Below are positions 18,293 to 48,039 of a DNA stretch of 64,000 bases, piece by piece. The notes under the pieces are model-generated. The model searched no databases, had not been told where the DNA came from, and saw only the letters and a list, made by a program, of their open reading frames with translations. This DNA comes from Cenarchaeum symbiont of Oopsacas minuta (GTDB lineage: Archaea > Thermoproteota > Nitrososphaeria > Nitrososphaerales > Nitrosopumilaceae): assembly GCA_029948415.1 (NCBI GenBank), contig JAJIZT010000002.1:82335-146334 (forward strand), read 5' to 3'. Position 1 is the stretch's first letter; every line of letters starts with the position of its first letter. Made by a program: the position numbers and the translations under genes.

Positions 18293-18509
18293 AATAATTA
18301 GATAGTGTTGATTGATCACGTATGGTTAATCCATCTCTCTCACGTCTACTTGATCTAAAAAAGTGCATCATTACTTACTCTAGAGTATCTTTGGTTATAT
18401 CGATCAAAATATTTCAAATTACAAGTGACAAAGTGAATAAATTTTTTTCTCATTGGCATAAGATCTGAATCTGCCACGTCAGCGATAACTTGAGAATAGT
18501 CTCACGATC

Positions 18510-18590
18510 GTATGAGGTCACGTCCCTGCCCATAATTATCAAGAAGGTTCTGTATTTACGTACAAAAATACAGAGTAGCTGACCTCGTAC
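18510..18590. mobile_element. MITE copy A (81 bp, IS66-type ends)
   Basis: An 81-bp repeat with ends GTATGAGGTCA and TGACCTCGTAC, flanked by a perfect 8-bp direct repeat TCACGATC (18502-18509 and 18591-18598). Copies B and C match it along their whole length; my count against copy B (inverted) is about 10 differences in 81. Inside is a further 9-bp inverted repeat TCTGTATTT/AAATACAGA. No coding capacity of its own, but the gene at 18539-18769 ends within it. Confidence 0.88.
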
Positions 18591-18769
18591 TCACGATCTA
18601 TTATTAGATCTTTATCAAATGTTATGAGCATGAGAGGAGATTGGATATAAAATGTTGTACTTTGTAGATCAGGTGTGGCTCCCGCAAAAAATATGAACCC
18701 CACGATAAAAAGAAAGATTAGCATAAATTTACCAAGGGTTATGTGAGTGGATCGCTTCATGGTATGCAT
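18539..18769 (-). CDS. Small membrane protein whose C-terminus is encoded by a MITE
   Basis: A 76-residue protein with one N-terminal hydrophobic segment, FMLIFLFIVGFIFFAGA (~15-31), then an extracellular-looking tail. The last 16 residues (YEVSYSVFLYVNTEPS) and stop lie inside MITE copy A. Removing the MITE and one copy of its 8-bp target duplication restores a different ending, DRETILKLSLTW..., stopping at TGA about 20 codons later. The insertion thus replaced the original C-terminus without killing the frame. I recognise no family; whether it is expressed is unknown. Confidence 0.5.
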   Translation of the reverse strand: MHTMKRSTHITLGKFMLIFLFIVGFIFFAGATPDLQSTTFYIQSPLMLITFDKDLIIDREYEVSYSVFLYVNTEPS

Positions 18770-18830
18770 ATCAAATTAAAAGTATAATAGGATAAAATTG
18801 AAGGTGTTAATATACTCGGCTGTACAGGCT

Positions 18831-19724
18831 GTATGAAGTCACATCATGACTAACAAATTAGTCAACAACACACGATCATATAGATAAGTATTATCAATAA
18901 CCAATCCATTCCATGAGTCGACGTCCGACAAACAGTGAATGGGAAGAATGCATGAGAGTTTATACAGAAAAGACGAATGAAATAATATCAAAATTGACAC
19001 ATCGGGTTGGTGTACTGAATAAAAAAATAAACTTCTCTAGAATCGACTTGCATATTACGAAAACCCCAACTCTCTACACGCTCACTTGAATATTTGAAAG
19101 AAAACGCAAGGCAAGAGAAAACGGCGAATTACCACACGAGATTGAATATTAGTTTGGGCATGATGTATCACATACAAGAAAAATGTTACAGTAATCATGA
19201 ACAAGAGTCGCGGTGCATATGTTATGAACAAATTTGATGGTGTTGCAGTAACTGGTGGGTATCGAGTGTACAAGAGCGAGGAATGCATTAGTGATGCTAG
19301 GTTCACGAGCTGCGTGCTACTAAACATATGGTGATTAGACATGGTGTGGCATATCAGAAACTCTATGAAGAGATGTTCATACTGTTTGAGAATGCCAAAA
19401 ACTATGCCAATTATAGTGCATGAGTCAGGTGTGCATTTGAATACACATTTGATCGTATGTTGGATGGATATAGTAATTTTGAAATGCAAAGTCTGATCAA
19501 ACGGTTAAAGAATACAACAGAAACTTTGCATTTATTGAGCATAAAGACATTCCACCTACAAACAATGCTGCCGAGTGTAATGTTGTGGTTCGCCGTATGA
19601 TAAGCGGTCAGATCAGGATCTATGAAAAGAATGTCCAACCTTCTAACGTGTATTTGGACATGAAAGGCACACGGTAAAAACGTCTTTGAAGAGGTGCTAC
19701 GTATTGTTTAATAGATGACCTCAC
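18831..19724. mobile_element. Degenerate IS66-family element, copy 2 (internally deleted)
   Basis: A relic of the same element as 5303-6687 but in the other orientation and shortened to ~895 bp. The left end reads GTATGAAGTCACATCATGAC followed by the shared palindrome GACTAACAAATTAGTC (18848-18863). The right end, inverted, reads GTGAGGTCATCTATTAAACAATAC, close to the left end of copy 1 but missing two bases. About 490 bp of the transposase centre are deleted. Flanking 8-mers do not match. It cannot move on its own. Confidence 0.8.
18913..19677 (+). pseudogene. IS66-family transposase remnant
   Basis: Starts as SRRPTNSEWEECMRVYTEKT, clearly homologous to the transposase start at 6604, then loses frame. 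The zone between the basic GELP segment and the DDE core is deleted. Later pieces in various frames correspond to KSRGAYVM, MNKFDGVAVTGGYRVYK, the HELRATKHM helix and the C-terminal PPTNNAAECNVVVRRMISGQ, ending at TAA 19677. Multiple stops and shifts make it non-functional. Confidence 0.8.
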
Positions 19725-19776
19725 GAATATTTGGCAAAAAGGTTTTTTAATGTAAAAATCAAATATATGTTATAAA

Positions 19777-20094
19777 ATGATCTCAAAGGACATCAACATC
19801 AATGATACCACGTATAGACTATCATTGACCGATCAGGTGATATATCACGTAAACAACCTCAAAAGCCTCTACGAAAAGGCATATGATGATCCAGAGATCT
19901 TTGAACAGATCAGCTCAGAGATCTCTTCAACCATAAACGAGATTGCATTGGCAATAGAACCAAAAGCTTCAGACAGCGACCTTGATGGTATTATACAAGA
20001 GATCATAAAGATCACAGACAGCAAGGCAGCAGAGCTACAAAACGAGATCTCCAATCAAGAATCCAAGCGTAAAAGATCTAGATCTAAAAAATAG
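19777..20094 (+). CDS. Uncharacterised helical protein with basic tail
   Basis: A 105-residue protein, almost wholly alpha-helical, of unknown family. Residues 1-95 are acidic and heptad-like (YHVNNLKSLYEKAYDDPEIF, ISSTINEIALAIEPK, DLDGIIQEIIKITDSK), ending with KRKRSRSKK, a strongly basic tail that could contact nucleic acid. It starts 52 bp after the IS66 relic with an AT-rich upstream region (TTTTTTAATGTA near 19748). GC content is slightly higher than in the surrounding spacer. Two Cys-rich microprotein genes follow. Confidence 0.65.
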   Translation: MISKDININDTTYRLSLTDQVIYHVNNLKSLYEKAYDDPEIFEQISSEISSTINEIALAIEPKASDSDLDGIIQEIIKITDSKAAELQNEISNQESKRKRSRSKK

Positions 20095-20150
20095 CTGACG
20101 CAGACAATATATGACGGTGTTTTTCATAATTGCGAGGTCGGATATACAAT

Positions 20151-20264
20151 ATGGCAGGATGCGAATGTGGAATATGTGGACATTTTTCAGATGAAGAGTG
20201 TCGTGAAAAAGAGTGCAAGTGTTGCATAAACTTTCACATTAGATCAGGTCCAAAGACAGACTAG
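20151..20264 (+). CDS. 37-residue Cys-rich microprotein
   Basis: Short ORF starting MAGCECGICGHFSDEECREK and ending FHIRSGPKTD, with seven Cys arranged as C-x-C-x2-C ... C ... C-x-C-C. The pattern suggests a zinc or Fe-S binding microprotein. Its stop TAG is part of the palindrome CTAG (20261-20264), which is also the stop of the convergent microprotein on the other strand. Too short for a family call. Confidence 0.55.
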   Translation: MAGCECGICGHFSDEECREKECKCCINFHIRSGPKTD

Positions 20265-20353
20265 TTGTAGCAACCACATTTTTTAGTAATATGTCTATGA
20301 CATCCAATAACATAATGATGAGTGCAACCACATAAAATACACTTTTTTTTCAT
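20261..20353 (-). CDS. 30-residue Cys/His-rich microprotein
   Basis: MKKKCILCGCTHHYVIGCHR then HITKKCGCYN: six Cys and four His in 30 residues, a zinc-finger-like composition. Its ATG (20353-20351) overlaps the stop of the upstream gene in an ATGA arrangement, which favours real translation by coupling. It converges on the 37-residue microprotein and shares its CTAG stop. Function unknown. Confidence 0.5.
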   Translation of the reverse strand: MKKKCILCGCTHHYVIGCHRHITKKCGCYN

Positions 20354-20730
20354 ATGGTATCCATATCTTCAAGTGTTATGTACATCTGTTTAACTAGTTT
20401 TGATTCTTCAAAAGCTTCAAGTATTTTAATACGAATGTTCTTGAGTCTATTTGGATCATCGCTGTACAGACCATACAACATATCTATCTCTTGTGTAAAA
20501 TCATATTCTGTAAATTTTCTGCATTTTTTTGCCATATTAACGAGTGTCTCATTTGTAATCTTTGAGGTGGTTATTCTATCTGCAAGTGCAACTGACAATC
20601 CAACTGAACGATGCCATTCGCGCCGTATGATATCAAGATCACCAGGTTTGTTGTCAAGTGATTCAAGTGTTTTATGAGAGAGGATCAAGTCACGTGTAAT
20701 ACCTTCCACATATTCAAATATTGTTACCAT
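20350..20730 (-). CDS. Uncharacterised helical protein
   Basis: A 126-residue all-helical soluble protein I do not recognise, from MVTIFEYVEGITRDLILSHK to KLVKQMYITLEDMDTI. The central part IIRREWHRSVGLSVALADRI and MAKKCRKFTEYDFTQEID suggest a helical bundle, possibly nucleic-acid or metal binding. It is divergent from threonine synthase (51 bp between starts) and its stop overlaps the 30-residue microprotein by 4 bases, so the two form an operon. Confidence 0.6.
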   Translation of the reverse strand: MVTIFEYVEGITRDLILSHKTLESLDNKPGDLDIIRREWHRSVGLSVALADRITTSKITNETLVNMAKKCRKFTEYDFTQEIDMLYGLYSDDPNRLKNIRIKILEAFEESKLVKQMYITLEDMDTI

Positions 20731-20751
20731 GTGGTGTCATCGTCTGCACCA

Positions 20752-20759
20752 TTATAAGT
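20752..20759 (+). promoter_or_regulatory. TATA box of threonine synthase
   Basis: TTATAAGT lies 23-30 nt upstream of the TTG at 20782, the expected spacing for a leaderless archaeal transcript, and supports that TTG as the start of thrC over the later TTG codons at 20818-20821. Confidence 0.45.
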
Positions 20760-20781
20760 ATAATTTGTACACAATAACGTT

Positions 20782-22149
20782 TTGTTATGCTTTAATACAG
20801 TATCAAAGATTGAACTATTGTTGCAAAATGCATATCTGAAATGTATAGGTGATGGTTGTGGATTAGAATATCCAATAACTGAAAAACGTGTAGAATGCAA
20901 AAAAGGACATCTACTTGATGTAAAATATTCAGATATGCCACACAAGGACTTGAAAGAGACGTTTCTGAATAGAAGAAACTCTAGTGGTAATATCTTTGAT
21001 GAAAGTGGAGTGTGGAGGTTTCGAGAATTATTTAATTTTTGTCAAATAGATACCAATGATTATGATAAATGTGCCAAATATTTGGTTTCATTAGATGGTT
21101 CCGAAGGCAGACAATCAAAACCATACAAGATGGTCAAAGTCGCCGAATATACTAATGCATCCTCTAATGGGTTATGGTTACAGCCTGAAGGATACAATCC
21201 TAGTGGATCTTTCAAAGATAATGGTATGGCTACGGCAGTTACACATGCAAAGCTAGTTGGAGTGAAAAAAATAATATGTGCATCCACAGGAAATACATCT
21301 GCATCTGCAGGCATGTTTGCCGCGAATGAAGGGATGGGTTGTGATGTATACATACCTTCAGGTCAAGTTGCACCTGGAAAGCTAAGTCAAGCATATCAAT
21401 TTGGAGCACAGATAATAAATGTAGATGGGAACTTTGATGATGCATTACAACAGTCTTTGGTGAATGCTTCAAAAGGCTCAGGATATACAGTAAATTCAGT
21501 AAATCCGTTCCGTATTGAAGGACAAAAAACTATCATCTATAGAGCTCTCGAATATTTACATTGGGATGTACCAGATTGGATTGTATATCCAGGCGGAGCT
21601 CTTGGTAATACATCGAGCTGCGGTAAAGCAATAATGGAACTTTATGAATGGGGATGGATTAAAAAGATTCCACGTATTGCTGTAATTAATGCAAAAGGTG
21701 CAAATACATTAGATGCTTTATACAATAATGACAACAATCCATTACGCTGGAACAAAGGGAGACCAAATGAAGATATGATTAAAAAATATTATCAAGATTT
21801 AGACAAGACTGGTTCACGACCCGATACAAAGGCCACTGCAATACAGATTGGTCGACCTGCAAACATCCTAAAGGCATTACGTGCTTTGGAATATACAAAT
21901 GGTATAGTTACCACGGTAAACGATTCAGAGATGCTTGATGGTATGTCCATTGTTGGTCTCAACGGATTCGACTGTGAGATGGCGTCTGGAGCTTCACCGG
22001 CAGGAATAAAAAAACTGATTAAAGACGAAGTGATGAAAAAAGATGATCGCATTATTGGGATATTAACAGGACGTCAAAAAGATCCTTCAATGCCGGTAAA
22101 TTATCACAATGATGCATCAAATGAATTTGCACGACCACCGCTCACATAG
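20782..22149 (+). CDS. thrC: Threonine synthase
   Basis: PLP enzyme converting O-phosphohomoserine to threonine. The N-terminus has a zinc-ribbon-like segment YLKCIGDGCGLEYPITEKR with further Cys at VECKKGH, common in archaeal ThrC. The fold type II core follows: GYNPSGSFKDNGMATAV with the PLP lysine (~135-150), CASTGNTSASAGMFAANEG (~175), and the GGALGNTSSCGKAI phosphate loop (~275). Length 455 is usual. The only outer starts are TTG codons; 20782 is chosen because of a well-placed TATA box, and TTG 20821 is an alternative. With the threonine dehydratase it links threonine to isoleucine synthesis. Confidence 0.93.
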   Translation: MLCFNTVSKIELLLQNAYLKCIGDGCGLEYPITEKRVECKKGHLLDVKYSDMPHKDLKETFLNRRNSSGNIFDESGVWRFRELFNFCQIDTNDYDKCAKYLVSLDGSEGRQSKPYKMVKVAEYTNASSNGLWLQPEGYNPSGSFKDNGMATAVTHAKLVGVKKIICASTGNTSASAGMFAANEGMGCDVYIPSGQVAPGKLSQAYQFGAQIINVDGNFDDALQQSLVNASKGSGYTVNSVNPFRIEGQKTIIYRALEYLHWDVPDWIVYPGGALGNTSSCGKAIMELYEWGWIKKIPRIAVINAKGANTLDALYNNDNNPLRWNKGRPNEDMIKKYYQDLDKTGSRPDTKATAIQIGRPANILKALRALEYTNGIVTTVNDSEMLDGMSIVGLNGFDCEMASGASPAGIKKLIKDEVMKKDDRIIGILTGRQKDPSMPVNYHNDASNEFARPPLT

Positions 22150-22494
22150 TCTAAAAAGATTAAACGTGTTTTTATCTAGGCATTCTAGAAAATTGTCAGG
22201 TGTAAACATTCTTGGTAAAAGATCATAGATTGTAGAATCTCCATGATGCTAGCTCAATATATCCACAGATTAATGTCAAGATTTATTGAAAATATCATAA
22301 TGATCGAGTTTTTCAGAGTATGAACTACAGACGTCTAGACAAGTCAGAGTAGAAATGTTATCAAAAGTGAGATGATATGCATGAATAAATCTAGTATAAT
22401 ACACGTACTGCTAGCTAGCAAAAAACCTTAAAAGACGCATATATCCATGTATATACGAGCGAATAACGGTGGATGATAATCCAGAAAACGATAA
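22150..22494. other. Intergenic region, no gene seen
   Basis: These 345 bp between threonine synthase and the CNNM protein hold no credible ORF or RNA gene. It is AT-rich with a GCTAGCTAGC tract at about 22413 and a TATA-like CATATATCCATGTATATACG near 22440-22460, probably part of the promoter for the downstream gene. Confidence 0.4.
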
Positions 22495-23778
22495 TTGGAC
22501 ACATATACAAATTTTGCGGTGGATTATTTGGTAGACATTTGGGTTGAAATTCTATTGCTTGCAGTATTAATTGCGCTCTCGGGTTTTTTTAGTGGGTTAG
22601 AAGTAGCACTAGTCGGCACTTCAAAGTCAAAGGTTATGCAGATGTTGATTAAAAATGTAAAAGGCTCAAAGGCCTTGCACAAGCTAAAATCAAATCCAGG
22701 ATGGATGATGTCTAGTGTAAATCTTGGCAACAACATGGTAAATGTGGCAGCTTCGGCAATTGCAACAAGTATCTCGATTAGATTTTTTGATAGCAACGGC
22801 TTGGCAATAGCCATAGGTCTTATGACATTTCTTATACTAGTCTTTGGAGAGATTACACCAAAAACATACTGTAATGCAAATGCCACAAAAATAGCTTTAA
22901 GATTTTCGCCAGTATTACTTGTGTTCGGATATGCACTGTATCCCATAGTAAAGATATTCGAATGGATAACACGTGCAATGGTACGTCTCACAGGTAGTAG
23001 ATATGCGCCGCCACCAATTACTGAAGATGAGATAAAAGATGTGGTGGATTTGGGATTAGCAGAAAAAGCTATTGAAGAAGATGAGCGAAGAATGGTTCAC
23101 GGTGCACTTGAATTCGATGATACTCCAGTACGAACTGTAATGATTCCTAGACTTAAAATGTTCATGCTGAACTCAAAGGTATTACTCTTTGAAGCATTAC
23201 ATGACATAAATCAAAGTGGTCACTCGCGCATACCCATATTTGATGAAAATCAAGACAACATTGTTGGATTTGTGCATGTTCGAGATATGTTAAAGCAGAT
23301 GGAAGATGGAGAAAAGATGGTTACACTTGCTCAAATAGCAAGAGAGCCTGTATTTGTATCTCAAGAAAAGACAGTAGCTGCATTACTAAAAGAGATGCGC
23401 GGTCGCAAGGTACACATGGCAATAGTAATTGATGAACATGGTGGTGTCGAAGGTCTTGTAACTTTGGAGGATCTTTTAGAAGAGATTGTTGGCGAGATAG
23501 AAGATGAGAGTGACAAGACTCCACAAGTACAGTATACAAAGATAGATGATGATACAATTATAGCAAACGGTAGCATGGAGATAGATGCCATAAACGAGAT
23601 ATTTAACACGTCCATTGCAAAAGGTGTAGATTATGCAACCTTGAATGGTCTATTACATGAAAAACTAAAAGACATACCACAAGAAGGTGATAAAATACAT
23701 GAAGGATCTCTTCGAATTGTGGTCGAAAAGGTTAGCGGCAACATCCCCGAACGCGTAAAAATTGAGCGAAGATCCTAG
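22495..23778 (+). CDS. CNNM/DUF21 membrane protein with CBS pair and CorC_HlyC domain
   Basis: A 427-residue integral membrane protein of the CNNM/CorC-type family, linked to magnesium or sodium-coupled divalent ion export. An N-terminal DUF21 domain (~1-190) has about four hydrophobic segments, e.g. ILLLAVLIALSGFFSGLEVAL and LMTFLILVFGEITPKTYCNA. A CBS pair spans ~205-330 (VRTVMIPRLKMFML, VDEHGGVEGLVTLEDLLEEIVGEIEDE), followed by a CorC_HlyC domain (~345-425; ANGSMEIDAINEIF, TLNGLLHEKLKDIP). Starts at TTG 22495 or GTG 22519. It converges with GAPDH, overlapping by 4 bases. Confidence 0.9.
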   Translation: MDTYTNFAVDYLVDIWVEILLLAVLIALSGFFSGLEVALVGTSKSKVMQMLIKNVKGSKALHKLKSNPGWMMSSVNLGNNMVNVAASAIATSISIRFFDSNGLAIAIGLMTFLILVFGEITPKTYCNANATKIALRFSPVLLVFGYALYPIVKIFEWITRAMVRLTGSRYAPPPITEDEIKDVVDLGLAEKAIEEDERRMVHGALEFDDTPVRTVMIPRLKMFMLNSKVLLFEALHDINQSGHSRIPIFDENQDNIVGFVHVRDMLKQMEDGEKMVTLAQIAREPVFVSQEKTVAALLKEMRGRKVHMAIVIDEHGGVEGLVTLEDLLEEIVGEIEDESDKTPQVQYTKIDDDTIIANGSMEIDAINEIFNTSIAKGVDYATLNGLLHEKLKDIPQEGDKIHEGSLRIVVEKVSGNIPERVKIERRS

Positions 23779-24821
23779 ATAAAGTGATTTTGCAATTGGG
23801 ATTTTTTTTCTGCCATATGAAAGAGTGATTCAGTATGTGCTGCAGCATCATCATAGTTGCGGTCATAAAGCATGGCTTGCATGAGCATATGGTTTTCAGG
23901 TATAACAATTCCCGTTTGATCATCAGAGTACATAATTTGTACAGTATCTCCAATTGTATCTGTCATGTTTGCATGTATGTGCACCATATTTGTATCAGTA
24001 AAAGAATATCCCAGCGAGTCTGCATATTCTCTTACTTTACGTGTTCCAGTAGCATTTTGTAATATTGCCACACCAGGTTCCAAATCAAAGATCGCATGTA
24101 TTTCAGCAGGATCTGGTGCTGTGTCAGTAAAACGGACATCTAAGATATGTAGATGCATCTGTCTAGTTGGCACCTTTATGGCACGCAAAAAAAGCGGAGT
24201 CTCTTTTCCCATGTATGCTTTAACATCATCTGCATGATGAGGTTTTTGCGTCATCTCTATGGTGTCGGGTACATTTTTTTCAGTCTGTTCAATATCTGCC
24301 CATCTACGCACAAGCGTCACATCAAATCGCACAAGTCTCGAGCCGTATTTATCACGTAGAGGCTGCAGTATTCTCCCCATACCAGTTACGTTACAGCTAC
24401 CCTGCATCACATGTTTTTTTCCAATTACCTGCATATGATTTGAGCGTGAGTTGTACAGGAAATTTGATACAGCTCTCTCTCCAAATATACTCTCACCTCC
24501 CTGATATATTGCAGATATGTTTCTAGGCTCGTAAAAGTTTTTTTTGTTAATATATCCAGTACCACTAGGTGATGCATCTATTACCAAATCACATCGATCT
24601 AGTGCAGATTCTATGCTTCCAGATATGTTGGTACCATCAAAGTTGGCAAGTTTTACCTCTGGAACATAAACATTATAGCCACGGGATTTTGCAAGTTTTA
24701 CTCCAGATCCTGGCGAGTGTTTTCCTATACCAATTAGATCAATTTCTGGATCATCTGAAATAAAAGATGCAATACGTTTTCCAATAGAACCGTATCCGTT
24801 TATGAATACTCTTTTTACCAT
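23775..24821 (-). CDS. gap: Glyceraldehyde-3-phosphate dehydrogenase, archaeal type II
   Basis: NAD(P)-dependent GAPDH of the archaeal class, used in Thaumarchaeota mainly in the gluconeogenic direction. The Rossmann motif INGYGSIGKRIA (~7-18) binds the nucleotide, and the catalytic Cys lies in QGSCNVTGMGRILQPL (~140). Archaeal-type features include FDVTLVRRWADIEQ and QMHLHILDVRF. Length 348 is typical (~340). The ATG at 24821 is well placed 91 bp from the divergent DsbA-like gene. Nothing unusual apart from the 4-bp overlap with the CNNM stop. Confidence 0.95.
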   Translation of the reverse strand: MVKRVFINGYGSIGKRIASFISDDPEIDLIGIGKHSPGSGVKLAKSRGYNVYVPEVKLANFDGTNISGSIESALDRCDLVIDASPSGTGYINKKNFYEPRNISAIYQGGESIFGERAVSNFLYNSRSNHMQVIGKKHVMQGSCNVTGMGRILQPLRDKYGSRLVRFDVTLVRRWADIEQTEKNVPDTIEMTQKPHHADDVKAYMGKETPLFLRAIKVPTRQMHLHILDVRFTDTAPDPAEIHAIFDLEPGVAILQNATGTRKVREYADSLGYSFTDTNMVHIHANMTDTIGDTVQIMYSDDQTGIVIPENHMLMQAMLYDRNYDDAAAHTESLFHMAEKKSQLQNHFI

Positions 24822-24912
24822 GATCTATTTTTACTAATCCGCTTAATTAGATTAACGTGTCATATCGCATGCACACAAAACGGCTAAATTACATACACTG
24901 CACTCATACTAT

Positions 24913-25590
24913 ATGATTATTCATGGTCCTTCGCTTACAATTGGAGCTACAGTGGCAGTAGCAATCATGTTGATCGCATTTATTGCATTAAATGACGCTG
25001 AAATGCCACTAAATTCTATAGATGTCCCACCTGCCAAAATTGATGTTGCCACGCTTGTGGAGAATGGCTCGCCACGTCTTGGAGATGAAAAAGCACCTGT
25101 AACGATAATTGAATTTGGAGACTATCAATGCTTTTTTTGTAACAAGTTTTATCACGATACTGAAAAAAGACTAATTTCAGAGTTTGTTGATACAGGCAAG
25201 GTATCCATAATATTCAAAGACTTTATAATAATTGGTCAAGATTCTGTCAACGCAGCCATAGGAGCAAGGTGTGCTACCGAGCAAGAGATGTTTTGGGAGT
25301 ATCATGATATATTATATGAAAATTGGGACGGAGAGAACACTGGGTGGGCATCTATGACGCATCTAAAAGAATTTGCGATAGATATAGGCCTAAATGAACA
25401 AGAATGGCTTGATTGTGTACAGTCTAATAGACATGTTAAATCATTAGATGCAAGTAATAATGATGCTATAGCAGTTGGACTTTCTGGAACTCCAGCGTTT
25501 TTTATAATTGGATCCGATAATAGTGTAGTTGCGTTAAGTGGAGCACAACCCTACGAGGTCTTTGAACGTATAATAAACGAGCAATTGTGA
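24913..25590 (+). CDS. Membrane-anchored DsbA-like thiol-disulfide oxidoreductase
   Basis: A 225-residue extracytoplasmic protein with an N-terminal membrane anchor (residues ~9-29, IGATVAVAIMLIAFIALND) and a thioredoxin-fold DSBA domain. The active site is FGDYQCFFCNKFYHD (CxxC, ~75), with the cis-Pro loop GLSGTPAFFIIG (~198). The DsbA helical insertion carries MFWEYHDILYENWDGENTGW. It probably forms or isomerises disulfides in secreted proteins. A paralogue at 41.2 kb has CEYC instead of CFFC; both share the YENWxGExTGW segment. Monocistronic, upstream of HMG-CoA synthase. Confidence 0.88.
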   Translation: MIIHGPSLTIGATVAVAIMLIAFIALNDAEMPLNSIDVPPAKIDVATLVENGSPRLGDEKAPVTIIEFGDYQCFFCNKFYHDTEKRLISEFVDTGKVSIIFKDFIIIGQDSVNAAIGARCATEQEMFWEYHDILYENWDGENTGWASMTHLKEFAIDIGLNEQEWLDCVQSNRHVKSLDASNNDAIAVGLSGTPAFFIIGSDNSVVALSGAQPYEVFERIINEQL

Positions 25591-25705
25591 AATATTGATC
25601 AATCCATATATTCAAAATTGATTTGGCATAAATTTTATGTGTTAATATAGCTGTACACGAATATGTGCAAATTTGATCGCATTGTAGTTAAATACACTAG
25701 TGATC

Positions 25706-25713
25706 TTTATAAA
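25706..25713 (+). promoter_or_regulatory. TATA box of HMG-CoA synthase
   Basis: TTTATAAA lies 24-31 nt upstream of ATG 25737, a textbook archaeal TATA box for a leaderless transcript. It decides in favour of ATG 25737 over the in-frame TTG at 25722, which is only 9 nt from the box. Confidence 0.6.
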
Positions 25714-25736
25714 CAAATTTTTTGACCCATGTATAC

Positions 25737-27131: not shown

Positions 27132-27175
27132 AATTATGTTACAGATGCAATATTTATGAATAATTTTCACATAAA

Positions 27176-31896: not shown

Positions 31897-31910
31897 TGGT
31901 AAATGATCGA

Positions 31911-31991
31911 GTATGAGGTCAGCTACCCCGTATTTTTGTGCGTAAACGCAAAACTTTCTTGATAATTATAGGCATGGACGTGACCTCATAC
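31911..31991. mobile_element. MITE copy B (81 bp, IS66-type ends)
   Basis: Same element as copy A, in inverted orientation, with ends GTATGAGGTCAGCT and TGACCTCATAC and a perfect 8-bp target duplication ATGATCGA (31903-31910 and 31992-31999). Its 14-bp left end is identical to the terminal repeat of the IS66 element at 5303. It is about 88 percent identical to copy A by eye, with mostly transition differences. Confidence 0.9.
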
Positions 31992-32066
31992 ATGATCGAT
32001 CAGTAATGCTCAATTAGAGTTGATCGTCGATCCTTATAGGAAGGTGTTTTTTTGATCGCAAGTGGT

Positions 32067-37082: not shown

Positions 37083-37095
37083 ATTTGTTCATCAC

Positions 37096-40083: not shown

Positions 40084-40105
40084 TAACAGATATGCAAGTA
40101 AGAGA

Positions 40106-40114
40106 TATTTAAAC
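40106..40114 (-). promoter_or_regulatory. TATA box of the winged-helix regulator gene
   Basis: Minus-strand GTTTAAATA, 24-32 nt upstream of the TTG start at 40083; supports TTG initiation on a leaderless transcript. Confidence 0.5.
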
Positions 40115-40118
40115 GAAA

Positions 40119-40847
40119 TTACTCTATAAAATCATCTCTTACATCAGGTATGAATTTACGCCACAGTCCTCCTAGTACAAATGGAATTGTAATCCAAAAA
40201 CTTGTCACAGATATGGCAGATGCTAATCTAAAATCATATAATAGATCCTTTGGGACGTTTGTAGTGTCTGCTGGTTCAGGAAACAATATCAAAGTCACAC
40301 CCATGATACATGCACATCCTGCAAGTGCTAGAAATTTTTTATTTCCATGTAAAAATTTCAAAATATAGCAAGTCCCCAACATTAACAATCCAGAGACTGT
40401 AATTAATCCAAGATAAAACATGGTTCTCTCTCCCACGGTTGCCGGATCCCCCACAGTGGGTGGGTTTGATGGATATTTTACAAATGGGATGGCAAATAAT
40501 ACAAGCCACATTATTGCTGCAAGTATCAATGATTTTTTTATAGTATCAGAGCTTGGAAGTGATTTTTTCACATATGCGTATATGAGTCCAAATAATGAAC
40601 CAAACGACATTCCAAGTATGGCGCTTGCGATAATTTGTCCACCTTTTTGCCATGTACGATATGCTTCGTGCTCTAGACGGAATTCAACAGTATTTTGCAC
40701 ATCTCCAGAGTCAAAGAGTGCCATATTTTCAAGTGAGATTGCTCTATCTAAGACGGGTTCAACAAGTACAAAGTTGGCTATTCCTTGAATTGTACCAGCA
40801 ACTATGCCAGATACGAGTATAACGCAAATAAACGCCAAAAATTTCAA
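40119..40847 (-). CDS. cbtA: Cobalt transporter subunit CbtA
   Basis: A 242-residue membrane protein with about five to six hydrophobic segments (FLAFICVILVSGIVAGTIQG, IIASAILGMSFGSLFGLIYA, SLILAAIMWLVLFAIPFV, a segment at ~140-165, and one near 205-225). The N-terminal FVLVEPVLDRAISLE and the WQKGGQII region match the CbtA family. Established: cbtA and cbtB occur together and are associated with cobalamin genes as a predicted cobalt uptake system. cbtB lies 10 bp upstream. Thaumarchaeota make cobalamin, so cobalt import fits. Confidence 0.85.
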   Translation of the reverse strand: MKFLAFICVILVSGIVAGTIQGIANFVLVEPVLDRAISLENMALFDSGDVQNTVEFRLEHEAYRTWQKGGQIIASAILGMSFGSLFGLIYAYVKKSLPSSDTIKKSLILAAIMWLVLFAIPFVKYPSNPPTVGDPATVGERTMFYLGLITVSGLLMLGTCYILKFLHGNKKFLALAGCACIMGVTLILFPEPADTTNVPKDLLYDFRLASAISVTSFWITIPFVLGGLWRKFIPDVRDDFIE

Positions 40848-40857
40848 TGGTTACATC

Positions 40858-41073
40858 TCAATGGCATGGAAATCCTGCAGCATGGCGCAGGTCATGTGAG
40901 AGCTCGTGCAAATACATACTATCAAATGCCTCTGCACCCTGTACAATACTAAACAAATGTCCTTGATCAAAGCCTATTGTAAATAATCCAAATACAAAGA
41001 CTAGAGCAAGAATGATCGTTGCATTTTTTGGAACACTAGTGCTATGTCGTGCAACTTTCATGTATCTTGACAT
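40858..41073 (-). CDS. cbtB: Cobalt transporter subunit CbtB
   Basis: A 71-residue protein with one membrane segment (ATIILALVFVFGLFTIGFD, ~19-37) and the typical histidine-rich C-terminus MYLHELSHDLRHAAGFPCH, likely a cobalt-binding tail outside the membrane. It is the first gene of the cbtBA operon. Minus-strand ATTTAAATA at 41096-41104 lies 23-31 nt upstream of the ATG, a good TATA box for a leaderless transcript. Confidence 0.87.
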   Translation of the reverse strand: MSRYMKVARHSTSVPKNATIILALVFVFGLFTIGFDQGHLFSIVQGAEAFDSMYLHELSHDLRHAAGFPCH

Positions 41074-41095
41074 ATTTGCGTATGTAGATTTGAGT

Positions 41096-41104
41096 TATTT
41101 AAAT
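41096..41104 (-). promoter_or_regulatory. TATA box of the cbtBA operon
   Basis: Minus-strand ATTTAAATA (palindromic core TTTAAA) 23-31 nt upstream of the cbtB ATG at 41073, at the spacing expected of leaderless archaeal transcripts. Confidence 0.5.
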
Positions 41105-41228
41105 ACGCCGTTTTTAGATCGCAGAAATGATCTAGTCTTTTTGTACAACATGGGATACATTTGTGAATAGATACACCAAAAATGGTTCCTTTGACAAGAT
41201 TTTTACCATAGTGTTAAAACCATACTAT

Positions 41229-41870
41229 ATGAAAAATAGATATCTTGCGCTAGTGGCAATTCCAGTCATTATTGGCATACTTTCAGTTGTATACATAACA
41301 CAAGATTCACCAAAGACAGATGAATTAACTATTGCAGGATTAATAGATGGAGCATCCCCAATCTTGGGCAATACAGATGCAGAAATTATCATTATAGAGT
41401 GGGGAGATTATCAATGTGAATATTGTCACAAATTTCACCAAAATACACTAGATGCGATAAAAGTAAAGTATGTAGATACTGGAGTTGCAAATATCGTGTT
41501 TCGAGATTTCATCTTGAATGGTCCAGATTCAGAGCTTGCCGCACTAGCATCACATTGTGCAGAGGATCAAGGTAAATTTTGGGAGTATCATAATGCATTG
41601 TATGAAAACTGGGGCGGAGAACGTACTGGTTGGATAACAGATGAGTCATTGCTTGCACTTGCCGTTTCACTAGATCTCGATGTATCAAAATTTGATCTGT
41701 GTGTAGATTCAAAGACACATACAGATCGTGTCATAGAATCCACAATATATGGAAAAAGTATTGGTATTGGCGCAACACCAACATTTTTGATATCAAATGG
41801 CCAAGATGTAATAAAGATTAGTGGTGCCCAACCAATGTCCGTCTTTGAACGAGCCATTGAAAGTCTATAA
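41229..41870 (+). CDS. Membrane-anchored DsbA-like thiol-disulfide oxidoreductase, second copy
   Basis: A DSBA-domain protein with active site WGDYQCEYCHKFHQN (CxxC), helical insert WEYHNALYENWGGERTGW and cis-Pro loop GIGATPTFLIS. ATG 41229 gives MKNRYLALVAIPVIIGILSV, a normal signal-anchor, and about 213 residues; the GTG at 41163 would add 22 polar residues before it and is less likely. It is a paralogue of the gene at 24.9 kb. It probably acts outside the membrane on secreted proteins. The aRF1 gene follows after 32 bp on the same strand. Confidence 0.87.
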   Translation: MKNRYLALVAIPVIIGILSVVYITQDSPKTDELTIAGLIDGASPILGNTDAEIIIIEWGDYQCEYCHKFHQNTLDAIKVKYVDTGVANIVFRDFILNGPDSELAALASHCAEDQGKFWEYHNALYENWGGERTGWITDESLLALAVSLDLDVSKFDLCVDSKTHTDRVIESTIYGKSIGIGATPTFLISNGQDVIKISGAQPMSVFERAIESL

Positions 41871-41902
41871 CGAGAGATATTTTAGGAGTAGATGTATAGA
41901 AT

Positions 41903-43201
41903 ATGGTCAAAATAAAGATCGAAAAACAAGACTCTGTTAAATTATATCGCATACGTAAAACATTGGATGAGCTCTCAGATAAGACAGGGCACGGAACAGA
42001 ACTCATCACAGTTTACATACCAAAAGGAAAACAGTTACACGAAGTTGTAAGTATTCTCAAAGAAGAGCAAGGAACAGCAGATAATATAAAATCTGATCTT
42101 ACTCGCACACATGTAGTTGACTCTCTCAACAAGGTCATACAGAGGCTAAAGATGTACAAAAAGACACCAGAGCGTGGCATGGTGATCTTTTGTGGAGCTC
42201 TGCCTCCTGAAGGTGGCGGACCCATAGGCAACGAGGTCATACGGGCATACGAGATAGATCCCCCAAAGGATCTAAAGACGTTTCTGTACAGATGTGATGA
42301 TCATTTTCACGTAGAGATCTTGAAAAATATGCTAAAAGATGACAATTTGATTGGATTTTTGGCTATCGATGCAAAAGATGCCGGATGGGGTCTATTACAC
42401 GGAGACAGAATAGACGTTTTATCTGAGACAGGTTCTGGTGTTGCAGGTAAACATAGACAGGGAGGTCAGTCTGCAAAAAGATTTCAAAAGCTTCGTGAGA
42501 TGGAGATGACATATTACTTTAATCGCGTAGCAAATGTAACCCGAGAATATTTCATAGATATTTATCAAATAAAAGGACTTGTGGTATCAGGTCCAGGACC
42601 TACAAAAGAAGAGTTTGTCAACGGAGGATATCTAGAATACAGACTGCAGAATATGATAATTGATACAATTGATGCATCATATGCAGGCTCTGAAGGTGTT
42701 AGAGAAGCCTTTGACAAGGCAGGCGATATACTCTCAAATTTTAGACTTGTGGAAGAAAAGCGCATAATCGAATCTTTGTTTATGAAGATAAATTCACATT
42801 CTGGTCTTGGAAGCTATGGAATGGATGAGGTTATCAACTTGCTCAAAAACAACGTCGTAAAGACGCTGCTAGTTACAGATGATACTGATATGCACAAGTT
42901 GGATATAAAATGCAACAAGTGCTCACATGTACAAGAAAAAATATTAAAACGTCCCAATCTTATCGAGTATCGAACTGGAGTGTTAAATAATCCATGCCCA
43001 AAGTGTAAAAGTACAGATTTAGAAGCAAGTGAACGAGATTTGATCGACTATTTGGCACTTTTGGCATCAAAGACTGGAACTGCCATTGAAGTCATATCTG
43101 GCAAGACCGAACATGGATCCATGCTTGCAAGTCTTGGAAAAATTGGCGCCATACTTCGATACAATCCTGGACATATGAAATCAAAACTAGGGTCACAATA
43201 A
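41903..43201 (+). CDS. prf1: Archaeal peptide chain release factor 1 (aRF1)
   Basis: Class I release factor that reads all three stop codons and triggers peptide release. The stop-codon loop TADNIKSDLTR (NIKS, ~60), the peptidyl-transferase GGQ loop in KHRQGGQSAKRF (~185) and a C-terminal zinc-type domain with CNKCSH and CPKCKS are all present. 432 residues is slightly longer than the ~415 average. KSKLGSQ ends the protein. Confidence 0.97.
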   Translation: MVKIKIEKQDSVKLYRIRKTLDELSDKTGHGTELITVYIPKGKQLHEVVSILKEEQGTADNIKSDLTRTHVVDSLNKVIQRLKMYKKTPERGMVIFCGALPPEGGGPIGNEVIRAYEIDPPKDLKTFLYRCDDHFHVEILKNMLKDDNLIGFLAIDAKDAGWGLLHGDRIDVLSETGSGVAGKHRQGGQSAKRFQKLREMEMTYYFNRVANVTREYFIDIYQIKGLVVSGPGPTKEEFVNGGYLEYRLQNMIIDTIDASYAGSEGVREAFDKAGDILSNFRLVEEKRIIESLFMKINSHSGLGSYGMDEVINLLKNNVVKTLLVTDDTDMHKLDIKCNKCSHVQEKILKRPNLIEYRTGVLNNPCPKCKSTDLEASERDLIDYLALLASKTGTAIEVISGKTEHGSMLASLGKIGAILRYNPGHMKSKLGSQ

Positions 43202-43231
43202 ACATCTAGTTTTAAAAATGCAAGCGGAGTT

Positions 43232-43636
43232 TTAAAGTCGGTCTCGTATATTTTTTGCTAGTGTGTCAAGATCTGCAATATTTGGAATGCTCCTTTTTGT
43301 CCAGACAGACCCTCGGTTGTCATAGCGTGGGATTATGTGTACATGTACATGAGGTATGATCTGTTTTGCAGATTTGCCGTTATTTTGTCCTAGACTAAAT
43401 GCGTTGGCACGAGTTGCTTGCAATATTGCACAAGCAAGCTTTGGTACTTTTGAAAAGAGTGAGCCAACATCTTTGGAGTTCATATCAGTTATCTTTTCAT
43501 AATGTTTTTTTGGAACAAGTAAGCAATGACCAACATCTATTGGATATCTATCTAAAAAAACCATAGATTCTGTATCCTCATATACTATACTCGATTTTGA
43601 GGTACCCGAGATGATATCACAGAATATACATGTCAA
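43232..43636 (-). CDS. HIT-family nucleotide hydrolase or transferase
   Basis: A 134-residue histidine-triad protein with the active site IIPHVHVHIIPRYDN (HxHxH, ~95-109) and the N-terminal CIFCDIISGTSKSSIVYED with two Cys of a possible zinc site. The family hydrolyses AMP-lysine, ADP-ribose or dinucleoside polyphosphates; the substrate here is not decided. The start is TTG (43636-43634). It converges with the aRF1 gene, 30 bp between stops. Confidence 0.88.
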   Translation of the reverse strand: MTCIFCDIISGTSKSSIVYEDTESMVFLDRYPIDVGHCLLVPKKHYEKITDMNSKDVGSLFSKVPKLACAILQATRANAFSLGQNNGKSAKQIIPHVHVHIIPRYDNRGSVWTKRSIPNIADLDTLAKNIRDRL

Positions 43637-43734
43637 TATTTTTACAATAATGTTATTTTATTTATTGTTTGAGTTTTTATCAATATGATGTATACTCATC
43701 TATGCCTTTAACTACTATCTCGTAAAGATATATC

Positions 43735-45339
43735 ATGCAACAGCGTAACATAAAGGGTCTAGCCATCATAATATTGTTGCTTGCAACATGGGGAAATGGG
43801 GCACAGATGATCGCAGCAGAGATATTTTATGCATCAATAAATTATAAAGTTCTCGGACCGCCAACATATTGTACAGTTGTTACCAATATTGATCTACCAC
43901 AATCAAAGGTGGATGAATTTGTCGGTATTTCAAGAGATGCAGTATCAAGCTGGACAGAGAATCTAAAGAGTGTCGAAGAGAATGTCAAAGATGTATGGGC
44001 AATGAATCACAAAAGTACAAGTCATTCCAGAGCCGGTTGTGACATTATTATCGAGTACAAGCCATACGACTTGGCCATGCAACCAGCTAGTCACGATGTT
44101 GTTGCCGGCACATTCTACACTAATGGTTCCATCACCATATACTATCTACAACCATTCAAGTGTACAGAAGATACATTGTGTTATTATGACGATGTATATA
44201 GAGACAAGACGTCGATATACAGCACAATGTTGCATGAAATTGGCCATTCTCTAGGTGCTGGACATTATGTATCAGATGATCCAATAGAGAATGAGAAATG
44301 GTTTAGTGGTGAAGAGCCACCACCATCCATAATGATTCCAACCATACCAGCAAACATCGATGAATTTACGATTAAACACTCTGACGTGCAAAAAATACGA
44401 GACATATACGGTCATAGAGGATTTTATGCATATAGTGATAAAGAGATACCATTATCGCGCCCATTTGTAATAATCGATGTTTCAAGGGATAGTATTGTAT
44501 TGAGCAAGTCCGGTTCCAACACACTTACGATATCTGGCCAGATATCAAAAGATGTGTTACTTATTGGTCACCCGGTCATAGTATCTATACTAAAACCAGA
44601 TCAAACAGTAGAGGTTCTTAAAATATCTCATACACGAAGTGGATATTTTGAAATACCCACAGTATACAATTCAGAATCTCCACTTGGATTGTATACTGTC
44701 TCGGTAAGTTATTTAGGAGTTACAGATACAAATATGGATGCATATTTTGAAGTTATAAACACAGAAAAAAATAACGAATTATCTTTTTCAGAGTCAGATA
44801 TAAAAAATAATATAGATATGCAAGAGACTATAATTGATTCTCTAAAACGACAGGCAGAATATCTCAATAAAGCTATAATCAAAAGTTCAAAATCAAATAA
44901 TGGAAAAGATAAAATTTTCCTGACAGCTTTGGATGATTCTGTTGGATATAAAATAGAATCAGCCCAACTACAGTTAGAGACTGCCAAAGAGAAATTTACT
45001 AGTGATGATTACGAGTCAGCAGCTGTTGCACTAAAAACTCTAAATGCAGATATAGAATCTATTTCAAATACATTAGAAAGAATAAATGAGGTCATATTAT
45101 CACAACATATGGAAAGATTGGATCAGGCAAGAGATGCCATAAAATTCCAAATTGCTGGACTAGCAGATAGATCTGAATTCACATCTACAATATCGACAGT
45201 GATCGATGCAGATGTAGATTTTAAAATTATTCCAAATTGGGTACGAACTACTTCAGAGTGGTGGGCATTAGGGGATATATCGGATAAAGAATTTATTGAT
45301 TTTTTAGAATACATACATCAAAATAACATAATATCCTAG
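43735..45339 (+). CDS. Secreted matrixin-like zinc metalloprotease
   Basis: A 534-residue exported protein. A signal peptide spans ~1-28 (GLAIIILLLATWGNGAQMIA). The catalytic domain (~30-225) has the zinc motif MLHEIGHSLGAGHYVSDD (HExxHxxGxxH, ~163-176) and a following IMIPTIP that may be the Met-turn region. A beta-sandwich-like domain (~245-345; TISGQISKDVLLIGHPVIVS) and a long helical/coiled part (~355-490) follow. The end, IIPNWVRTTSEWWALGDISD then KEFIDFLEYIHQNNIIS, matches a C-terminal tryptophan-rich segment that I associate with thaumarchaeal surface proteins. It may process cell-surface or extracellular proteins. Confidence 0.85.
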   Translation: MQQRNIKGLAIIILLLATWGNGAQMIAAEIFYASINYKVLGPPTYCTVVTNIDLPQSKVDEFVGISRDAVSSWTENLKSVEENVKDVWAMNHKSTSHSRAGCDIIIEYKPYDLAMQPASHDVVAGTFYTNGSITIYYLQPFKCTEDTLCYYDDVYRDKTSIYSTMLHEIGHSLGAGHYVSDDPIENEKWFSGEEPPPSIMIPTIPANIDEFTIKHSDVQKIRDIYGHRGFYAYSDKEIPLSRPFVIIDVSRDSIVLSKSGSNTLTISGQISKDVLLIGHPVIVSILKPDQTVEVLKISHTRSGYFEIPTVYNSESPLGLYTVSVSYLGVTDTNMDAYFEVINTEKNNELSFSESDIKNNIDMQETIIDSLKRQAEYLNKAIIKSSKSNNGKDKIFLTALDDSVGYKIESAQLQLETAKEKFTSDDYESAAVALKTLNADIESISNTLERINEVILSQHMERLDQARDAIKFQIAGLADRSEFTSTISTVIDADVDFKIIPNWVRTTSEWWALGDISDKEFIDFLEYIHQNNIIS

Positions 45340-45390
45340 TAAATCCCACATACGGTTTGTTTATTATATAGCTTCTAGAATCACGCATAC

Positions 45391-45987
45391 ATGGGTAAGA
45401 AATCACGCAGAGAGCGAGAAGAACGTCGCGAGAGCTTTGCTGCAAAACGCATAAAACAGAAACGAAAAAACTCTATAATCATATTTGCTGTTTTTGCAGT
45501 AATTATAACAATAATTGGTATATCATCATACAATTTTATCACCAGTGGAGGTATTGGGCAAGGATCACCAGAGAATGCAGGAACACTTGGCGATGAGCAT
45601 GTACATGCATCCATACTAACAAAGATACATGGAGATTCCTTTGATTATTCTCTTCCTGCATATCAAATAAAGAGCGGTTGGATACACTTTGAGGCTCAAG
45701 ATGGAACCACCATTCATAGACATGCATCAGGGGTCACACTCGAATACCTATTCAACAGTGTTGGAATACGACTAGATGAGAAATGTTTTGTGTTTCCAGA
45801 TTATAGAGAATTTTGTACAAATGAAGAATTTTCGCTCCAATATTATGTAAATGGAGATATAGTAAACTCTATAAACGATCTAGTCATTGAGGACGAATCA
45901 CGCATACTCATTTCATACGGCAAAGACGATTCAAATCGCATAGCAGAAGAACTTGCAGAGCTAGAAGGACAAGAGATTCTAGGCTAG
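45391..45987 (+). CDS. Single-pass membrane protein with His-containing extracytoplasmic domain
   Basis: A 198-residue protein: a highly charged cytoplasmic tail (KKSRREREERRESFAAKRIK), one membrane segment (SIIIFAVFAVIITIIGISSY, ~27-47) and an external domain. That domain has GDEHVHASILTKIHGD and GTTIHRHASGVTL, two His-containing patches that might bind a metal, and two Cys (EKCFVF, REFCTN) that could form a disulfide, a possible DsbA substrate. I do not recognise the family. It lies 51 bp after the metalloprotease gene on the same strand. Confidence 0.68.
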   Translation: MGKKSRREREERRESFAAKRIKQKRKNSIIIFAVFAVIITIIGISSYNFITSGGIGQGSPENAGTLGDEHVHASILTKIHGDSFDYSLPAYQIKSGWIHFEAQDGTTIHRHASGVTLEYLFNSVGIRLDEKCFVFPDYREFCTNEEFSLQYYVNGDIVNSINDLVIEDESRILISYGKDDSNRIAEELAELEGQEILG

Positions 45988-46021
45988 CTGTAAACACTAA
46001 ATTACATAATATCACATCTAA

Positions 46022-47701
46022 ATGCATATGGAGATATCAAGTCGCAATGTGGTGAGTGGAACAGCACGTTCCCCACATCGAGCCATGTATAGAGCCATGG
46101 GACTTGGAGACGAGGAGATCGAGAGACCGTTTGTAGGCGTCTGTCATACTGGAAACGAGGCAACGCCATGTAACATACATCTACCAGATTTGGCCGAATA
46201 TGCAAAAAAAGGTGTAAATGATGGTGGTGCAACTCCAAGAATTTTTTCAACAATAGCCGTAAGCGACGGCATAGCCATGGGTCATGAAGGTATGAAGTCA
46301 TCACTTGTCTCACGTGAAGTTATTGCAGACTCTATAGAATTGATGGTACGTGCACATCAATATGATGCACTAGTGGGCATTGCAGGATGTGACAAATCAC
46401 TTCCTGGTACGATGATGGCCATGGCTAGATTGAACGTACCTTCGATCTTTGTGTATGGTGGAACAATAATGCCAGGAATACTTGACGGAAGAGAGCTTAC
46501 CATAGTAGATGTGTATGAAGCAGTTGGAGCATATGATTCTGGCAAAATAACTCAAAAAGATCTTGAGGATATTGAAAAAAATGCATGTCCAAACGCTGGC
46601 TCGTGTGGAGGCATGTTTACTGCAAATACAATGGCATCAATATCAGAAGCCATAGGACTTGGACTTCCTGGAAGTGCATCACCTCCAGCAGAAGATGAGA
46701 GACGAAAAAAGATGGTATATGATACTGGAGTTGCATGCGCAAAACTTGTCGAATCCAAAATACGCCCAAAGGATATACTCACATTTGAGGCATTTGAAAA
46801 TTCAATCACAATTTTAAATGCAGTTGGAGGATCCACCAATGGAATCTTACACCTACTTGCACTAGCACACGAGGCTGGAATTAAACTAGATTATAATGAC
46901 TTTGAGAGGGTACGTAAAAAAACACCACATATTGCAGATATGAAACCTGGTGGAAGTTTTGTTATGAACTCTTTGGATAAAATCGGCGGTATTCCAATCG
47001 TCTTGAAAATATTGCATAAAAAAGGATTATTGCACGGCAAGTGTATTACAGTTACAGGTAAGACACTTGAAGAAAACCTTGAATCAGTTGTTACAATTCC
47101 TGATGGACAGTCAATTATCAGACCTGTGGAACGACCCTTACATGAAACTGGAACTTCGGTCATATTGCATGGGTCGCTAGCTCCAGAAGGTGCTGTAATA
47201 AAGACGGCAGGAATGGAGATGAATAAATTTCAAGGTAAAGCCCGTGTCTTTGATCGTGAAGATCATGCGTTTGAAAAAGTATCTGCTGGAGATATAAACA
47301 AAGGAGATATTGTTGTAATCCGCTATGAGGGTCCAAAAGGAGGTCCTGGAATGCGCGAGATGCTTGCAACTACTGCTGCACTTGTGGGTCAAGGTCTTGG
47401 AAAAAGTGTGGCCATGGTTACAGATGGTCGATTTTCTGGTGGTACACGAGGTTTCATGGTTGGACATGTAGCTCCTGAAGCATACGTTGGTGGTCCTATT
47501 GCACTAGTACAGGATGGCGACAAGATCTCCATAGACATAGAGTCTAATTCTATTATTTTGGATGTTTCATCTGAAGAGCTTGAAGAGAGAAGATCACGAT
47601 GGATACCTCCAAGTCCGAATTATTCAACTGGTGCGCTTGCAAAATATGCATCTCTAGTAGGTTCTGCAGCTCATGGTGCGATAACTAGTCCGATCCTATA
47701 G
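46022..47701 (+). CDS. ilvD: Dihydroxy-acid dehydratase
   Basis: Fe-S dehydratase of valine, leucine and isoleucine synthesis, converting dihydroxy acids to 2-oxo acids. Cluster ligands are visible in [13 protein letters not shown] (~50), [16 protein letters not shown] (~120) and [14 protein letters not shown] (~193), three Cys consistent with a [2Fe-2S] form. [23 protein letters not shown] is the conserved C-terminal block. 559 residues fits the family. Start is ATG 46022 or ATG 46028 two codons later. With the threonine dehydratase at 7.5 kb it serves the isoleucine pathway. Confidence 0.96.
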
Positions 47702-47884
47702 ATGACTAGTGCAGTAAAATACAGAATTGGTGCTTTTTTTCACAGCGATCATTGCAACTCCGTCACTTGGGCAACGACCACATTTGTAACATTTTACCGC
47801 TCTAGCAGTAGATTTGACATATTCTGTGTCTTGCTTTGCTAATTGTAGCATCTGACTCATACTAGTATCTAGACAGGCAGGCAT
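47696..47884 (-). CDS. Small zinc-ribbon protein
   Basis: About 54-62 residues, with [20 protein letters not shown] and a later FYCTSHL, giving a C-x2-C-x2-C ... C-x2-H pattern that fits a zinc ribbon. The first Met (47884) or the Met at 47860 may be the start. The gene overlaps the ilvD stop by 6 bases, tail to tail. Directly upstream (47891-47909) lies a perfect 19-bp palindrome, possibly its operator. Confidence 0.6.
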
Positions 47885-47890
47885 AAAAAG

Positions 47891-47909
47891 GTACCGTAAT
47901 TTACGGTAC
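47891..47909. promoter_or_regulatory. Perfect 19-bp palindrome, operator-like
   Basis: GTACCGTAA-T-TTACGGTAC: two perfect 9-bp arms with a one-base centre, 7-25 nt upstream of the zinc-ribbon protein's ATG at 47884, where a bound dimeric regulator would block the promoter. It lies 45 bp from MITE copy C but is not part of it. Confidence 0.5.
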
Positions 47910-47953
47910 TAGTACATATAATGGCGTGTTAGTTGTTCATCTATTCACATATC

Positions 47954-48031
47954 GTACGAGGTCACATCCCTGCCTATAATTATCAAAAAAGTTCTGCATT
48001 TACACACAAAAATACATAGTTGACCTCATAC
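47954..48031. mobile_element. MITE copy C (78 bp, IS66-type ends)
   Basis: Same family and orientation as copy A, with ends GTACGAGGTCA and TGACCTCATAC and three bases missing near the right end. The flanking 8-mers (CACATATC, ATAAATAC) do not match, so this is an older copy or its target duplication has decayed. It ends 33 bp before the probable trpE start. Confidence 0.82.
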
Positions 48032-48039
48032 ATAAATAC
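48032..48039 (+). promoter_or_regulatory. TATA-like box of the trp operon beside MITE copy C
   Basis: ATAAATAC lies 26-33 nt upstream of GTG 48065 and directly touches the right end of MITE copy C, so the BRE position (CCTCAT) is element DNA. Spacing supports GTG 48065 as the trpE start; inference only. Confidence 0.4.

Follow-up and report, generated by a model that had tools for sequence, protein, structure and literature searches.

Miniature elements with IS66-type ends in an archaeal symbiont genome, and an IS110/IS1111-type element nested in some of them

The genome of the Cenarchaeum symbiont of Oopsacas minuta (G000, 1.63 Mb in 11 contigs, numbered here C1 onwards) contains a family of miniature inverted-repeat transposable elements (MITEs) with the ends of an insertion sequence (IS) of the IS66 family. 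We describe it starting from a stretch of 64,000 nucleotides, called here the window (C2:82335-146334), in which three members are found; positions given without a contig number refer to it. We estimate a probability of about 0.93 that these three sequences are MITEs with IS66-family ends, moved by an IS66-type DDE transposase which duplicates 8 bp of its target. There is also a somewhat better than even chance that part of the family is the landing site of a different element, of IS110/IS1111 type, which carries a candidate guide RNA.

The three copies in the window align from end to end, and each of them has GTAYGAGGTCA at both termini. Copy 1 has 81 bp (18510..18590, forward strand; model match C2:100844-100924) and lies between two perfect 8-bp target duplications, TCACGATC, at 18502..18509 and 18591..18598. 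Copy 2, also of 81 bp, has the opposite orientation (31911..31991, reverse strand; C2:114245-114325) and is flanked by the perfect duplication ATGATCGA at 31903..31910 and 31992..31999. Copy 3 has 78 bp (47954..48031, forward strand; C2:130288-130365); its flanks CACATATC and ATAAATAC differ, so that it has no target duplication. All this agrees with the initial annotation, which had located the three copies and described their termini and the two duplications. It had also stated that their 14-bp end, GTATGAGGTCAGCT, is identical to the end of an IS66 relic in the window. This is true for one end of copy 2; in copies 1 and 3 one end matches at 13 of 14 positions. The opposite end of each copy has only the outer GTAYGAGGTCA in common with IS66, followed by CGT or CAT, versus GCT in the IS66 element.

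A three-copy family is a correct description of the window, not of the genome. Exact GTAYGAGGTCA sites number 136 (67+69) in the whole genome versus 2 (1+1) for the reversed control pattern, which is more than expected by chance. The search of the full genome proposed in the initial annotation was carried out with a sequence-only model (R1) built from 31 copies, with a mean column identity of 91%; it gave 86 matches, with 150 of 1751 candidates scored (40 of 116 in an earlier whole-genome search). From these we have extracted 61 near-full-length copies, leaving out half matches and fragments, with ends set by hand within a few bases. Their length is 76-85 bp, typically about 81 bp, and they have no gene, as expected for MITEs, which are shorter than about 300 bp and have no transposase gene. 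They have inverted ends, GTATGAGGTCA on one side and TAGCTGACCTCATAC on the other, the same as in the IS66 element C1:959857-961274 described below; many copies differ from them by 1-2 bases. Some copies share flanks (C4:97767 and C8:11692 one of them, C1:967192 and C1:725112 both) and may be duplicates of each other. The count of 8-bp duplications, also proposed at the outset, gives 21 perfect cases and four with one mismatch among the 61 copies at their exact ends, so that the family has multiple copies with target duplications. When left and right flanks of different copies are paired as a null, there are no perfect duplications in 3660 pairs and 0.08% with one mismatch.

Sites which have remained empty are found within the same genome. 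The MITE at C1:340299, with the duplication CAAAAAAG, sits inside a copy of an IS110-type element. Its joined flanks have 15 other uninterrupted matches with 84-92% identity, all of them copies of that same element; elements A and D (see below) contribute two apiece. Four of the five uninterrupted sister sites displayed have a single CAAAAAAG. The MITE at C1:752973, with the duplication CTTCAAGA, sits inside an IS66 element of a second lineage: its joined flanks have seven other full matches of 392 bases at 94.5-96.9% identity, with a single CTTCAAGA in all six sister sites displayed. An older third case is C1:179492, to be compared with the diverged duplicate C1:182366-182673.

A candidate for the transposase which moves these elements is also present. 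There are 50 PF03050 matches in the genome. One of them belongs to C1:959857-961274, an IS66-family element of 1418 bp with MITE-type ends, the perfect duplication TACTTTTT and an unbroken frame of 439 aa, which matches PF03050 with E 1.7e-34 over profile positions 2-280 of 284; the zf-IS66 domain gives a weak match, under the cut-off. The prediction that an active copy might exist outside the window thus finds a suitable element, as judged by its ends, frame and duplication. It has only one transposase frame and no accessory tnpA and tnpB genes, which are present in many IS66 members. Single-gene members are known, therefore the lack of these two genes does not exclude it from the family; the single-transposase type is known as ISBst12-like. 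A target duplication is also found in the IS66 element C7:19741-21143 (AATTCTCG), which has stops in the transposase region; other copies, such as the relic in the window, have none. Among them L033 (C1:921614) codes for a protein 84% identical, interrupted by stops.

The window itself has two IS66 relics, which had both been described as full-length and dead. The one at 5303..6687 (reverse strand, PF03050) is indeed full-length, with the same ends and a broken transposase frame: it has 83% nucleotide identity with C1:959857-961274 and an exact GTATGAGGTCAGCT at both ends, without a target duplication. It is the only full-length relic in the window, because the other one (18831..19723, forward strand, 240 bp away from MITE copy 1) is decayed and internally deleted; it matches in two pieces, with 74% and 81% nucleotide identity.

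What the MITE has in common with C1:959857-961274 is limited to 11 terminal bp on one side and 15 on the other. Their interiors show no similarity, and for this reason we have rejected a MITE derived from the present IS66 element by internal deletion. As only the ends are shared, movement in trans is what we infer: the transposase of C1:959857-961274, or of an earlier sister copy, would recognise the MITE ends, carry the gene-less element to a new site and duplicate 8 bp of target upon insertion. The interior of the MITE would then need no function. The presence of an unbroken IS66 element with the same ends, together with the 8-bp duplications and the empty sites, therefore makes it probable that the MITEs have been moved by an IS66-type transposase, in agreement with the non-autonomous elements proposed in the initial annotation. 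A second kind of non-autonomous derivative is C1:962935-963237, an internally deleted IS66 element of 303 bp which keeps both ends. In the second IS66 lineage, C1:941999-942763 and C1:757535-758299 have no stops across the PF03050 match.

The 81-bp model has no match in 40 relatives; it has none either in 399 further genomes of the order, a scan of reduced sensitivity (11 candidates scored per genome) which gave 11 matches in the own genome versus 82 in the search of the 40 relatives, so that a few weak copies elsewhere could escape it. A search for the IS66 transposase in 200 genomes of the family, the own one included, gave matches in 11 of them, and only G000 and G022 had matches better than 1e-100. 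The latter belongs to another genus and has the nearest outside transposase, with 44-45% protein identity; three of its IS66 elements have the ends GTAYGAGGTCAGC and perfect 8-bp duplications. A strict pattern for elements of 72-102 bp with these ends is found only in G000 (25) and G022 (12) among 250 genomes of the family. The short elements of G022 form a different MITE family: 11 of the 12 were inspected (L175-L179, L181-L186) and have 92-95 bp; the duplication is perfect in nine of them, and the remaining two have 1 and 3 mismatches. Their interior has no visible resemblance to that of the G000 family. Both families are alike in having GTATGAGGTCACGT at one end in most copies and GCTGACCTCRTAC at the other, an asymmetry which may come from a common ancestor or from a requirement of the transposase. 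One G022 locus (L161, 1501-1754) is a MITE containing another insert with inverted ends, of about 160 bp. An exact-pattern scan of a collection of genome contigs, in which the own genome was possibly not included, gave no match. In a scan with the IS66 protein ten stretches fitted a pattern and none was confirmed; in a viral scan a pattern of which 16 bases were fixed had three exact matches, plausibly by chance.

Several observations weigh against the interpretation that an IS66-type transposase has moved the MITEs. There is no duplication with one mismatch or less at the exact ends of 36 of the 61 copies. A shift of one end by 1-2 bases brings three of these to 0-1 mismatch, and shifts which add up to five do so for a fourth; such shifts have no null for comparison. 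The match to IS66 continues beyond 11 bp at only one MITE end, and another transposase with similar ends could have been the mover. The comparison genomes belong at best to the same family, and none is from the same genus and could provide orthologous empty sites. Finally, GTAYGAGGTCAGC is absent from G001, although this genome and G022 belong to one genus.

We turn now to the MITEs which are split. Half matches to the model are found 1.3-1.7 kb apart, covering model positions 1-59 and 41-81: they are MITEs interrupted by an element with the PF01548 and PF02371 domains. The split lies between ...TTCT and TGCATTTACG..., TGTATTTACG... or a similar sequence. Six composites, A-F, have both MITE halves and an identical junction (C1:686894-688351, C1:970486-971810, C1:541863-543184, C1:28371-30091, C7:10444-11828 and C3:70482-71772). 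In composite A (C1:686894-688351), moreover, some 98 bp of the non-coding region are duplicated in tandem at the right end. In partial composites a left MITE half remains in L073 and a right half in L053, L054, L060 and L075; the right flank of L060 is that of composite F. The element is also present without MITE halves, with its own ends AACCATATG...CACATAGA; a circular form would have the junction CACATAGAT-AACCATATG. L062, L091, L070, L076 and L079 are in unrelated sites, to judge by those of their ends which are preserved.

The DEDD domain PF01548 and the C-terminal PF02371 are both recognised in what remains of the frames of A and D. An unbroken frame is found in L062 (C1:181070-182365), with 362 codons from stop to stop and about 326 from the first Met; the IS1111-type range is 330-350 aa. 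L062 adjoins or lies in a gene with repeated stretches, which may be cupredoxin-like. It has the motif GLAPSVRNSA (GL-P----SA), which differs from the GL-P----S(t)G motif, occasionally with TA, given for IS1111 in the description of seekRNA elements (PMC11187229). Therefore we class the element only as IS110/IS1111-type.

Its 3' non-coding region has two hairpins, each flanked by segments which match DNA. At the first hairpin, the segment on the 5' side is the complement of the right flank. The one on the 3' side, GTTCT, repeats the sequence of the left MITE flank in composites A, B, C and E; D deviates from it by one base. In the second hairpin ATGGTT and ATAGAT match the two ends of the element itself. 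The consensus fold of eight copies has 3 of 47 pairs changed on both sides, and the two target segments partly pair together. We compared the 5' segment with the own right flank in 11 copies, leaving out L053, L060, L073, L008 and the second right end of D, which are truncated, duplicate or have a changed flank. Matches are found at 71 of 88 positions versus 59.5 for shuffled flanks (p 0.0007); with eight non-redundant copies they are 50 of 64 versus 40.9 (p 0.0076). These p values are optimistic, because the register was fixed after the sequences had been seen. L062, in its unrelated site, matches at 7 of 8 positions. The candidate guide reads TATTTAC in composites A-C, in MITEs with TGTATTTAC, and CATTTAC in D and E, in MITEs with TGCATTTAC. 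The sequence GTTCTRYATTTAC has 14 sites in the genome, 12 of them within MITEs.

These features would fit an IS110/IS1111-type element which inserts at one position of some MITEs through a guide RNA matching that site. We give about even odds to a more complete version, in which the IS66-type MITEs keep supplying new landing sites to an RNA-guided element whose guide varies with the MITE variant, while the composites, having IS66-type ends, could ride the IS66 transposase. In such a case two unrelated transposition systems would share one element.

The role of MITEs as landing sites has several points against it, besides the choice of register. A perfect 8-bp duplication is present in only two of the six composites, A and D. 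Two of the 11 guide-flank pairs are poor (L091 and L054, with 4 of 8 positions each), and the guide of L079 is a closer match to the flank of L091 than to that of L079 itself. In L062 and L091 the 3' segment departs from the left flank. The two GTTCTRYATTTAC sites outside MITEs have no insertion and carry GTTCTACATTTAC, which is a better fit to the guide of D and E.

Another history has to be weighed here, to which we grant a real but less than even chance. The IS110-type element might have entered a single MITE, and the IS66-type transposase would afterwards have multiplied the whole composite: the common junction would indicate descent and not targeting. The duplications of A and D fit this history; B, C, E and F, without duplication, do not. 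We have compared the divergence of MITE arms and element interiors, cutting A before its tandem duplication, using only the first of the two right ends of D for the interior and leaving out copy G. Arms are more diverged than interiors in nine of the ten pairs among A-E (4.9-8.5% versus 0.55-1.6%; Fisher p 0.0001-0.044, for pairs which are not independent), contrary to what a single entry predicts. The exception is the pair D-E, in which both are equally diverged; the five pairs with F show no excess either, so that these six pairs speak for a single entry and against targeting. A free MITE at C3:135233 has exactly the sequence of the arms of A, another point against copying of the whole composite. 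In an unrooted tree a split with 98% support divides A-E and G from the rest, which suits a single entry, and F, with its identical junction, is placed among the other copies with weak support, which does not. The arm and interior pattern favours repeated insertion of the IS110-type element into existing MITEs; gene conversion of the interiors could produce the same pattern, and the tree does not settle the question.

Two other explanations of the family as a whole are both very improbable. The copies could be conserved regulatory or structural DNA, such as transcription or chromosome-organising repeats, spread by recombination. The joined flanks have no open frame of at least 150 codons in 56 of the 61 copies, hence most of them need not break an intact gene, as this explanation would have it; the test is weak, because it misses decayed genes. 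In the other five sites the open frames across the joined flanks are mostly at gene starts. Against it stand the 21 perfect duplications at exact ends and the two filled and empty pairs inside mobile elements, which already contradict it. The conserved counterpart in relatives, which the initial annotation had put forward as the alternative to mobility, does not appear in the 40 relatives, nor in the 399 genomes of the less sensitive order-wide scan. In a fold of 31 copies only the inverted ends pair, with no pair changed on both sides, and we have rejected an RNA-structure function for the MITE on these grounds; Rfam at gathering scores finds a tRNA as the only match in the window.

The remaining idea, equally improbable, is that long MITE-ended elements lost their interior and so gave rise to the MITE, with the IS110-type gene as its parental transposase: it would explain both MITE halves in those elements and the four extra bases at the junction in C1:595096 and C1:595216, as left after imprecise loss of an insert, and we have rejected it because the IS110-type element occurs without MITE halves, with ends of its own, and GTAYGAGGTCA ends belong to IS66 elements in G000 and G022. 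IS110-type elements are not known to have inverted ends with 8-bp duplications. The two MITEs just mentioned (C1:595096-595180 and C1:595216-595300) are 35 bp apart, and the first has a perfect 8-bp duplication; their extra bases are possibly the remnant of a lost insertion.

The genome thus documents an expansion of IS66-ended MITEs in an archaeal genome, with an unbroken candidate driver, and a parallel expansion of same-ended short elements in another genus of the family. Searches of open-access texts on archaeal MITEs, IS66 and Thaumarchaeota insertion sequences brought up no described archaeal MITE with IS66-type ends. The relation between MITE and landing site, which we infer in part, is more unusual than the family itself. 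It points to a repeat which, multiplied by one transposase, becomes a supply of targets for another, and this is relevant to how mobile elements accumulate in small archaeal genomes. The nested copies have closely related guides and targets which can be compared, so they offer a natural test of RNA-guided target choice.

Compared with the single-transposase type of the IS66 family, the system has in common PF03050, a weak zf-IS66, inverted ends and 8-bp duplications; the MITE differs by the absence of a gene and of an IS66 interior. MITE families of Sulfolobus have 25 to 44 copies (PMC10969869), and those of Sulfolobus and other archaea are similar to ours in their short gene-less form, in having tens of copies and in their movement in trans. 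The hosts named in the available part of that paper are Sulfolobus, Halobacterium, Haloquadratum, Desulfurococcus and "several other archaeal genomes", and that part contains no mention of IS66, Thaumarch or Nitros. The nested element resembles the IS1111-type seekRNA elements (PMC11187229; for the bridge RNA see PMC11208160) by its DEDD transposase with PF01548 and PF02371 and by a long downstream non-coding region. It also has 7-bp subterminal repeats, TATGTGC/GCACATA, and, in its candidate guide RNA, a putative top-strand match which precedes (5' of) the bottom-strand match, as given for IS1111 (PMC11187229). It differs in its target, a MITE of another IS family, and in the motif GL-P----SA. 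The closest parallel in its use of repeats that we can cite is that of insertion sequences in bacterial REP repeats (PMC1525189), where a short chromosomal repeat family also provides landing sites; here this part falls to MITEs with IS66-type ends, in a host assigned to the archaea.

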